Shown: positions 328 through 17,293 of the stretch, piece after piece | Layout: every line of letters begins with the position of its first letter | Position numbering within the stretch: the stretch's first letter is position 1 | Origin: Microcaldota archaeon | Lineage (GTDB): Archaea; Micrarchaeota; Micrarchaeia; Anstonellales; Anstonellaceae | NCBI GenBank assembly: GCA_018304295.1 | Contig: JAGVWK010000003.1 | Location: forward strand, 1-36,495 | Direction: 5' to 3' | Length of the DNA: 36,495 bases | Program-made: the position numbers and the translations under genes | The notes under the pieces: generated by a model | Seen by the model: only the letters and a program-made list of their open reading frames with translations | Told to the model about the DNA's origin: nothing | Databases searched by the model: none

Positions 328-416
328 GCAGGGGTAGCAAAGCTTGGTCAAATACCTAAACCGCGGAGGGGGACACCCCCTCCCCAGTTTTAGGTTTAAT
401 CCTGACCCTCCCCCGC
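328..416 (+). repeat. 89-bp foldback beginning with a copied tRNA-Leu 5' end
   Basis: Positions 328-353 are identical to 453-478, the first 26 bases of the downstream tRNA-Leu(CAG). The copy then diverges into GC-rich sequence in which almost the whole segment folds back on itself. GCAGGGG (328) faces CCCCCGC (410-416), GGTCA faces TGACC, ACCTAAA faces TTTAGGT, and a GGAGGGGG/CCCCCTCC core closes on ACA. The length resembles a class II tRNA, but there is no anticodon arm, the D stem is broken and no standard T loop exists. It is best described as a tRNA-derived pseudogene or palindromic insertion. On the minus strand the terminal pairing is slightly better, with a G-U wobble in place of A-C. 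Confidence 0.6.
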
Positions 417-452
417 TTGCTTTTATTTGTTTATGAACTAAAGTTATGTAAA

Positions 453-668
453 GCAGGGGTAGCAAAGCTTGGTCAAATGCGCAGGACTCAGAGAACCCTT
501 TTGCTCGCTCCAGATGGGTACGCTCGCAACAAGCTTTTTCGCTTCGGCGAAAAAGATGCGCCTTTTTGCCTTCAGGCAAAAAGTGCGAAGCGTTCACGGA
601 AAAATGGCAAGAGGGTTTCGGTAATCCTGTCGGTTAGCCGTTCGAGGGTTCAAATCCCTTCCCCTGCA
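453..668 (+). tRNA. tRNA-Leu(CAG) with a 131-nt anticodon-loop intron
   Basis: The acceptor GCAGGGG (453-459) pairs with CCCCTGC (661-667), followed by A73, as expected for Leu. The D stem is GCA/TGC. The anticodon stem CAGGA (482-486) pairs with TCCTG (625-629) and the anticodon CAG is at 489-491. A long variable arm precedes the T stem and the loop TTCAAAT. The intron is placed at 493-623, between positions 37 and 38. A BHB forms with 3-nt bulges GAG and TAA and an outer helix AACCC (494-498) with GGGTT (613-617). The central four-pair helix has one C-C mismatch at anticodon base 34. The mature length is 85 nt. An AT-rich box centred near 428 lies about 25 bases upstream. Confidence 0.9.
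493..623 (+). other. tRNA-Leu(CAG) intron, family A
   Basis: This is the BHB-type intron, 131 nt. It contains three hairpins: one around the TCCAGATGGG loop, a GCTTTTTCGC/GCGAAAAAG hairpin on TTCG, and a CTTTTTGCC/GGCAAAAAG hairpin on TTCA. About 95 bases in the core are nearly identical to the first intron of tRNA-Ser(GGA) at 17088-17232. No endonuclease-like protein is encoded; open frames here look compositional. Confidence 0.8.
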
Positions 669-3169: not shown

Positions 3170-3337
3170 TGGGGCCACCGTGATTTTCAACAGAGGTTTC
3201 AAAGCCCGACACCTTTGATTTCGAAGAGGGGGTGAAACCTCAGGGGGACTTTCGGTAAGCATTGGTTCCCCCTAGGTGTTTGAACACGGACCGCCGCGTC
3301 CCGAACGCGGAAGCATACCAGGTTAGCACATGGCCCC
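3170..3337 (-). tRNA. tRNA-Pro(CGG) with a 95-nt T-loop intron
   Basis: Acceptor GGGGCCA (3337-3331) pairs with TGGCCCC, with A73 at 3170. The anticodon stem is CCGCG/CGCGG with loop TTCGGGA, giving anticodon CGG. The T stem CCGTG pairs with CACGG, but its loop is interrupted. The sequence TTCA-AAC ... TGAA-AAT forms a BHB: a four-pair helix TTCA/TGAA flanked by 3-nt bulges AAC and AAT on top of the T stem. Cutting after the second base of each bulge removes 3184-3278 and restores the consensus loop TTCAAAT. Mature length is 73 nt. AT-rich TTTAAA centred near 3373 is a candidate promoter. Confidence 0.9.
3184..3278 (-). other. tRNA-Pro(CGG) T-loop intron, family B
   Basis: The 95-nt intron lies between positions 59 and 60. 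It folds as AGGGGGA/TCCCCCT closing an 18-nt loop that holds CCGAAA, followed by GAGGTTTC/GAAACCTC enclosing a second domain. The T-loop intron of tRNA-Ser at 16961-17055 has the same length, the same position, the same two-domain layout and shared sequence blocks (GGGGAAC, CCGAAA, CCCCTCTTCG). Confidence 0.85.
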
Positions 3338-12239: not shown

Positions 12240-12425
12240 AGTCCCGCAGGCAATTTCCGTGAACGCTTTTTCGTGCGTGCCCATTGAGCGGACGCGAACG
12301 TCCGCGAGACAAGCAACCGAGGAAACCCCAAGGTTTCCAAGGCGCCTGACCGCGAGGTCAGCCGCGCCGAAGGTTGCTGCGTCTGGAGCACGAAAAAGGG
12401 TTCTGCCACTTTCGGGAAGCACCCG
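12240..12425 (-). ncRNA. Structured RNA or leader upstream of rpsB, related to family A introns
   Basis: The minus strand folds into nested helices. CTTTTTCGTGC/GCACGAAAAAG (11 perfect pairs, 12388-12398 with 12266-12276) encloses an AGCAACC/GGTTGCT helix that carries two hairpins (CTGACC-TCGC-GGTCAG and GGAAACC-TTGG-GGTTTCC), plus a GCGGACG-TTCG-CGTCCGC hairpin. GAACCCTTTT (12394-12403), GCTCCAGA (12382-12389) and GCGTTCACGGAAA (12254-12266) occur in the same order in the tRNA-Leu intron. No tRNA halves flank it. It could be a 5' leader of rpsB mRNA, an independent RNA or a relic intron. Confidence 0.6.
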
Positions 12426-12435
12426 TTAATAAAAA

Positions 12436-12539
12436 TGGGGTCACCGTGATTTGAAGTTCCGAGAAGCATCTTTGAAATGCTCCTTCACGGATCGCCGCCA
12501 CCCCAAGGCGGTAGGTTAGCCAGGTTGCCCCATGACCCC
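12436..12539 (-). tRNA. tRNA-Pro(GGG) with a 30-nt T-arm intron
   Basis: Acceptor GGGGTCA (12539-12533) pairs with TGACCCC (12443-12437), with A73 at 12436. Anticodon stem CCGCC/GGCGG carries loop TTGGGGT, so the anticodon is GGG. T stem CCGTG pairs with CACGG and the loop is TTCAAAT, but 30 bases are inserted between positions 53 and 54 (12456-12485). A BHB supports this boundary: central helix TCCG/CGGA, bulges TGA and ACT, and an intron helix AGGAGCAT/ATGCTTCT closed by TTCAAAG. The exon-side helix is short, a relaxed form. Mature length is 74 nt. It follows rpoN directly. Confidence 0.88.
12456..12485 (-). other. tRNA-Pro(GGG) intron at position 53/54
   Basis: The 30-nt intron is mostly one hairpin of eight pairs. 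It is unrelated in sequence to the 95-nt T-loop introns and sits six positions earlier in the T arm. Confidence 0.8.
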
Positions 12540-16912: not shown

Positions 16913-16960
16913 CATATCACCGTGATTTTTTTGAACGTAATGGGGACGCCGGGAATGGGA

Positions 16961-17055
16961 TTTTCACCAACGGGCTGCAGCCAAATCTTCGGATGCGAAG
17001 AGGGGTTGAAGCCCTTAAGGGGAATTTCGGAAATGCTTATGTTCCCCTTATGGGG
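16961..17055 (-). other. tRNA-Ser(GGA) T-loop intron, family B
   Basis: The 95-nt intron is homologous to that of tRNA-Pro(CGG). AAGGGGAA/TTCCCCTT closes a loop with CCGAAA, GGGCT/AGCCC encloses a TCTTCG/CGAAGA hairpin. Both main helices differ from the Pro intron by paired changes, which supports the fold. Confidence 0.85.
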
Positions 17056-17087
17056 TTTGAACCCATACGGCCTTGCGACCACACGCT

Positions 17088-17232
17088 TTCTGGACATTTT
17101 TCCCTTTGTCTTCCGTTGACGTTTTCCGTCAACGCTTCGCACTTTTTGCCCGGAGGCAAAAAGGCGCATCTTTTTCGCCGAAGCGAAAAAGCTTGTTGAG
17201 CGCGTTCCCATCTGGAGCGCTCAAAAGGGTTG
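17088..17232 (-). other. tRNA-Ser(GGA) anticodon-loop intron, family A
   Basis: The 145-nt intron shares its core with the tRNA-Leu(CAG) intron: AACCCTTTT, GCTCCAGATGGG, and the same two T-rich hairpins with TTCG and TCCG loops. The first stem TTGAGCGC/GCGCTCAA is perfect here. A CGTTGACG-GAAAA-CGTCAACG hairpin near the 3' end is absent from the Leu copy. Confidence 0.85.
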
Positions 17233-17293
17233 TTCCAGGCGTGCGCACTACCAGATTATGCGACCCCGGCACGCCGCCATTACGCATGACATG

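Follow-up and report, generated by a model that had tools for sequence, protein, structure and literature searches.

Archaeal tRNAs may contain two or even three bulge-helix-bulge (BHB) introns, located at canonical as well as non-canonical sites (PMC4390854, PMC3293823). How archaeal tRNA genes gain introns has been described as unknown (PMC4090602). For the Thermoproteales, similar tRNA introns dispersed among different tRNAs in a lineage-specific manner were reported (Fujishima 2010, as summarized in PMC4090602). In Caldiarchaeum, the disruption of a tRNA-Thr gene involves an insertion of 1.9 kb that carries a putative recombinase gene and lies beside a copy of the tRNA 5' half (PMC3293823). 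The introners of eukaryotes, as outlined in PMC9860276, are repeat families that make similar introns at many sites and also occur as dispersed copies.

We analyzed a window of 36,495 nt, meaning the whole stretch of DNA under study, from a genome (G000) that falls into the genus of 'Ca. Anstonella' and whose assembly is fragmented and 84% complete. The tRNA-Ser(GGA) gene of this window shares with the transposed introns of the Thermoproteales that similar introns are found in different tRNAs and at different positions. It differs from that system, as described in PMC4090602, by the host lineage (Micrarchaeota), an epsilon2 EndA, copies outside tRNA genes, copies behind tRNA 3' ends and direct repeats that flank some copies. 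Unlike in the multi-intron tRNAs known so far, each intron belongs to a different repeat family, and copies and empty sites can be traced in relatives. The likeness to Caldiarchaeum lies in the association of intron gain with an insertion beside a copy of a tRNA 5' half, whereas the elements found here are gene-free and only about 50-150 bp long. The likeness to introners lies in the repeat family and its dispersed copies, whereas removal would here be due to EndA acting on BHB motifs and not to a spliceosome.

The tRNA-Ser(GGA) precursor comprises 324 nt on the minus strand (17270-16947) and is composed of the following parts:

17233-17270, minus strand: exon 1, from the acceptor 5' strand to A37 (ARAGORN on the spliced form; conserved in relatives)
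17088-17232, minus strand: intron 1, 145 nt, at 37/38, family A with an extra hairpin insertion (BHB; BLAST)
17056-17087, minus strand: exon 2, from A38 to A59, variable arm and 5' half of the T-arm (spliced form; relatives)
16961-17055, minus strand: intron 2, 95 nt, at 59/60, family B (BHB; family relatives; CM)
16947-16960, minus strand: exon 3, from T60 to the discriminator G73 (spliced form; relatives)

The joined exons form an 84-nt class II tRNA in which all stems and the consensus loops are kept. ARAGORN identified tRNA-Ser(gga) in the spliced form but reported nothing for the precursor. When intron 2 alone was taken out, it called a tRNA-Ser(gga) containing an intron of 145 nt. The precursor was also missed by Rfam, and a scan of the window with both programs returned only a tRNA-Leu(GAG). 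The introns matched no group I or other catalytic intron family of Rfam apart from a chance hit with an E value of 0.81, and a search for known RNAs within them gave none. The TruB protein encoded beside the tRNA gene is 79% identical to TruB of isolate LFW-35, which is 'Ca. Anstonella stagnisolia' (Anstonellales, Micrarchaeota; PMC8561730).

For intron 1, the BHB consists of an outer helix CACGC/GCGTG, a central helix CTGG/CCAG and the bulges AA^C and AA^A. The poor inner helix makes this a BHB of the relaxed type. For intron 2, the outer helix is ATGGG/CCCAT, the central helix TTCA/TGAA, and the bulges are AA^C and AA^T. Folds that were forced into the BHB were 2.7 (intron 1) and 0.7 (intron 2) kcal/mol above the unconstrained minimum. 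The initial annotation had proposed exactly these two introns and the resulting class II tRNA, with a precursor almost four times its size; this anatomy was confirmed, including both BHB motifs, that of intron 1 with a weak inner helix.

We compared the observed BHB pairing to chance by scoring, for all parsable introns of Anstonella and its relatives, whether the intron 4-mer predicted to enter the central helix is complementary to the exon of the same tRNA. The central helix was fully paired in 27 of 49 introns at position 37/38, compared to 10% when the exon was taken from another tRNA and 2.6% for other 4-mers of the intron. For family A introns alone the corresponding values were 12 of 17, 15.5% and 2.5%. 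B-like introns showed full pairing in 10 of 13 cases versus 2.1%; exchanging the exon for that of another tRNA was uninformative at 59/60, because the T-loop bases are nearly identical across tRNAs. BHB complementarity was thus far above the controls.

An endonuclease of broad specificity had been postulated for this genome by the initial annotation. C37 of G000 indeed encodes a 406-aa EndA, of which residues 14-406 match residues 1-387 of the epsilon2 enzyme of ARMAN-2 (4fz2) with an E value of 1e-129. The match extends over the full length and the three-unit architecture (PDB 4fz2, 9w2k). In ARMAN EndA, the Tyr-Lys pair of the ARMAN-specific loop (ASL) and the catalytic Tyr/His/Lys are reported to be essential, and transfer of the ASL into another EndA is reported to have resulted in broad specificity (PMC12397907). 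The alignment to ARMAN-2 showed that the C37 protein has kept both the ASL residues Y160/K161 and the catalytic residues Y236/H251/K282 (numbering from PMC12397907), so that this epsilon2-type EndA is predicted to have the specificity required. In contrast to the ARMAN system described in PMC12397907, G000 encodes an additional, shorter EndA-like protein of 168 aa (C18, L218, 503-1009, minus strand). Similar short paralogs are present in several relatives.

The locus might also be a dying pseudogene filled with repeats, with the serine codons being served by another tRNA-Ser(GGA) that is missing from the incomplete assembly. The 84% completeness of the genome and the size of the precursor would fit this assumption. 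A second intact gene, which together with the lack of a mature product from this locus would speak against the initial annotation, was not found in our searches of G000. The stems, the consensus loops and the BHB pairing at both junctions are all kept, which speaks against a pseudogene. We also read the tRNA-Ser(GGA) genes of about two dozen relatives, some of them by eye. Two introns were present in G000, G001, G005, G008, G009, G015, G025, G027, G028, G030 and G034; only a T-loop intron in G002 and G016; only a 37/38 intron in G003, G004, G010, G014, G019, G022, G029 and G038; and no intron in G032. A scan had suggested two introns for G003 as well, but inspection revealed that the T-loop intron is absent. 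The exons of the orthologs are nearly alike irrespective of the presence of two, one or no introns, and several of the genes lie just upstream of rpsM. The two-intron architecture is therefore not unique but shared by about ten relatives, and a tRNA with two introns is in itself not unusual for archaea or for this lineage. Based on these comparisons, a pseudogene is very improbable, and the locus is most likely a functional tRNA-Ser(GGA) gene that is presumably spliced in vivo.

In G001, a sister species of the same genus, and in several other relatives, the T-loop intron of tRNA-Ser(GGA) is unrelated to family B and in our reading fits best to position 56/57. The B intron of G000 consequently looks like the product of turnover rather than of simple inheritance. 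In G004 (C14, L069, about 1626-1800), the 3' part of tRNA-Ser(GGA) recurs in the form of two 37-bp units and one partial unit. The units are separated by hairpin-bearing segments of about 39-42 bp, an arrangement reminiscent of a repeat-spacer array.

Intron 1 belongs to family A. Its best BLAST match among the other tRNA introns of the same genome had an E value of 1e-41, and relatives are present in tRNA-Leu(CAG), Tyr, Asp, Glu(TTC), Glu(CTC), Gln(TTG), Gly(TCC) and Ala(TGC) and outside tRNA genes. Relatives of intron 2 (family B) are present in tRNA-Leu(TAG), Gly(GCC), Tyr, Lys(TTT), Lys(CTT), Ser(CGA), Pro(CGG) and Arg(TCG). Each family thus occurs in at least nine tRNAs of G000; tRNA counts are minimum figures, based on searches and on selected stretches. 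Among the tRNAs parsed, Ser(GGA) and Tyr hold one intron of each family. The core of family A is the covarying hairpin AACCCTTTT..AAAAGCGTTnACGGAAAA, that of family B is (A)CCTAGGGGG..CCCCCTgAGGTTTCACCCCCTC. For the family A hairpin, we counted 15 cells with changes on both sides versus 4.5 in shuffled alignments, and none of 500 shuffles reached this number. Intron 2 matched the family B CM with an E value of 6.5e-25, this copy being part of the training set; scores of copies on which the models R1 and R2 were trained do not count as independent evidence. Our sample of the order and the phylum contained 11 family A copies in G000, seven in G001 and nine in G013, and family B gave 23 matches in G000, many of them outside tRNAs.

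The assignment of one intron to each family by the initial annotation agreed with these relatives in different tRNAs of the same genome, but its implication that each family is confined to one position did not hold. Besides 37/38, relatives carry family A at 59/60 of tRNA-Tyr, at both sites of one tRNA-Lys and in the D-loop of tRNA-Val, and the B-like intron of tRNA-Arg(TCG) is located at 37/38. Outside the order, other families of the class gave weaker A-like matches, among them D-loop copies, intergenic copies and a tandem array.

Such similarity could also arise without any mobility of the introns themselves, if tRNA genes exchanged them through gene conversion or ectopic recombination. The families are mostly found in tRNA genes, these genes have exon sequence around the T-loop in common, of which family B requires no more than TTCA. 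The cores of family A, however, are common to tRNAs whose intron 3' ends are tRNA-specific. Furthermore, copies are present at 5' regions of porB and upstream of rpsB and of an SBDS-like gene. Others lie within a C/D-box-like RNA and within 23S rRNA, and none of these sites has a tRNA exon in common. One of these copies lies within the window:

12251-12402, minus strand: family A copy upstream of rpsB, with extra internal hairpins (outside tRNA)

Near the start of porB, family A copies are located at different points in G000 (C40, L155) and G001 (C4, L198), and the start of the gene is duplicated in each case. The porB copies were also considered as spliceable mRNA introns; no BHB was seen by eye in G000, and a downstream ATG gives the full frame, which led us to reject this idea. 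No strict bias towards the sense strand was seen among the copies outside tRNAs. B elements lie directly behind the 3' ends of tRNA-Ala(CGC) and tRNA-Val.

Some further copies are worth recording on their own. In G013 (C49, L200), a family A element lies between the D' and C' boxes of an apparent C/D-box sRNA gene, as judged by eye. In G021 (C46, L178), an A-like element within 23S rRNA at GACTGTTTACCAAA is apparently an rRNA intron. In G251 (C123, L263), four A-like elements outside tRNAs are arranged in tandem with a period of 50 bp. In G000, a family A copy (C20, L160, 421-522) seems to be in frame near the start of an ORF (ATGGACGAA^AACCC), and a tRNA-Val-like gene with a D-loop intron is directly followed by a family B copy (C22, L114).

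The window contains further tRNA genes and related sequences:

453-667, plus strand: tRNA-Leu(CAG) with a 131-nt family A intron at 37/38 (exons compared to the G001 gene)
328-429, plus strand: element C (354-429), preceded by a 26-nt copy of the 5' part of tRNA-Leu(CAG) (328-353); lacking in G001
3170-3337, minus strand: tRNA-Pro(CGG) with a family B intron at 59/60; not detected by ARAGORN or Rfam (sequence and family B matches)
12436-12539, minus strand: tRNA-Pro(GGG), interrupted in the T-arm near 53/54 by an intron of about 30 nt; not detected by ARAGORN or Rfam (by eye)

Of the five tRNA genes that we read in the window, ARAGORN and Rfam recovered only one and missed four. The G001 counterpart of tRNA-Pro(GGG) has family B at 59/60 instead. 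The tRNA-Leu(CAG) of G001 is intronless and identical to the spliced exons of G000 (84 of 84 nt). Likewise, the tRNA-Ser(CGA) of G001 lacks the B intron that G000 has at 59/60, and also the insertion of element C with its 41-nt duplication. Family A is also present in the tRNA-Leu(CAG) of G013 and G030, so that G001 may instead have lost the intron.

These sites bear on the view that the families are MITE- or REP-like palindromes of the usual kind, inserted at arbitrary sites, and that the tRNA introns are older and merely lengthened by them. In tRNA-Tyr the A element sits inside an older short intron, the 3' part of which is kept. The extra hairpins inside A match many further places in G013, and the tandem array of G251 lies outside tRNAs. 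We consider this view possible but rather less probable than its opposite. Between the sister species, whole introns of tRNA-Leu(CAG) at 37/38 and of tRNA-Ser(CGA) at 59/60 are present or absent exactly at the splice positions, through a gain in G000 or possibly a loss in G001; the repeats can thus make up the intron itself.

Several copies are flanked by duplications. At porB the duplication measures 21 bp in G000, whereas that of G001 measures 49 bp and includes one mismatch. Another one of 11 bp was found in G001 (C1), one of about 16 bp, also containing a mismatch, in G031, and one of 35 bp around two B copies. At further B copies, 12 bp are duplicated in G000 (C48), and in G004 the duplication covers 15 bp of the 3' end of a tRNA-Pro. 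An automatic scan detected direct repeats of at least 11 bp around 7 of 104 A, B or C copies, or 5 without two tandem copies of L249, whereas such repeats flanked 8 of 1048 positions taken as controls from these loci; the 11-bp repeat of L136, which stems from a second tRNA-like sequence nearby, and the tandem array of L263 were excluded from the count. Several more cases were seen by eye. Flanking repeats are therefore enriched over the controls, yet most copies have none. Gene conversion would not be expected to give such duplications, and together with the copies outside tRNAs this makes exchange between tRNA genes an unlikely origin of the families.

We consider it highly probable that the tRNA-Ser(GGA) locus is a functional gene whose two BHB introns, cut by the epsilon2 EndA, are copies of two lineage-specific mobile repeat families. 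As judged from sequence comparison, spreading of BHB introns by a mobile, introner-like repeat is the most likely explanation. Both introns would be excised by the epsilon2-type EndA of G000, and the exons would then be joined, presumably by RtcB. Copies would insert into tRNA genes, in many cases at the boundary of an existing intron or slightly within it, and likewise into other RNA genes and intergenic sites. Some insertions would duplicate the flanking target, by which an intact copy of the gene would survive. A copy would persist in a tRNA when its ends complete a BHB together with the exons. For this, family B would supply TGAA, which is complementary to the near-invariant TTCA of the T-loop. 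Family A would use a 3' end that is specific to the tRNA and in some cases was taken over from an older short intron. One of the duplicates would later be lost; we give this route of duplication and loss somewhat less than an even chance. B elements right behind tRNA 3' ends may represent an alternative outcome of the same insertions. Retrotransposition was not supported: the reverse transcriptase family was sparse in our search, and it was not detected in G001 despite the seven A copies of this genome, so that reverse transcriptase does not track copy number. More tentatively still, the elements could be regarded as 'introners' of the Micrarchaeota, gene-free hairpins with long and variable target duplications that end up as a spliceable insert or as a repeat beside the tRNA after loss of one duplicate.

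As far as the literature searched shows, the copies outside tRNAs, the flanking duplications and the empty sites in sister species are new for the Micrarchaeota. In the open-access literature searched, no title or abstract dealt with BHB introns of Micrarchaeota or tRNA introns of DPANN archaea, which is weak evidence for novelty. The tRNA genes that were missed by gene finders bear on tRNA-based measures of completeness for DPANN genomes. Full and empty sites in sister species, copies outside RNA genes and duplicated flanks make the gain of archaeal tRNA introns testable, and the introner reading, if true, would provide a concrete mechanism for the gain of BHB introns.
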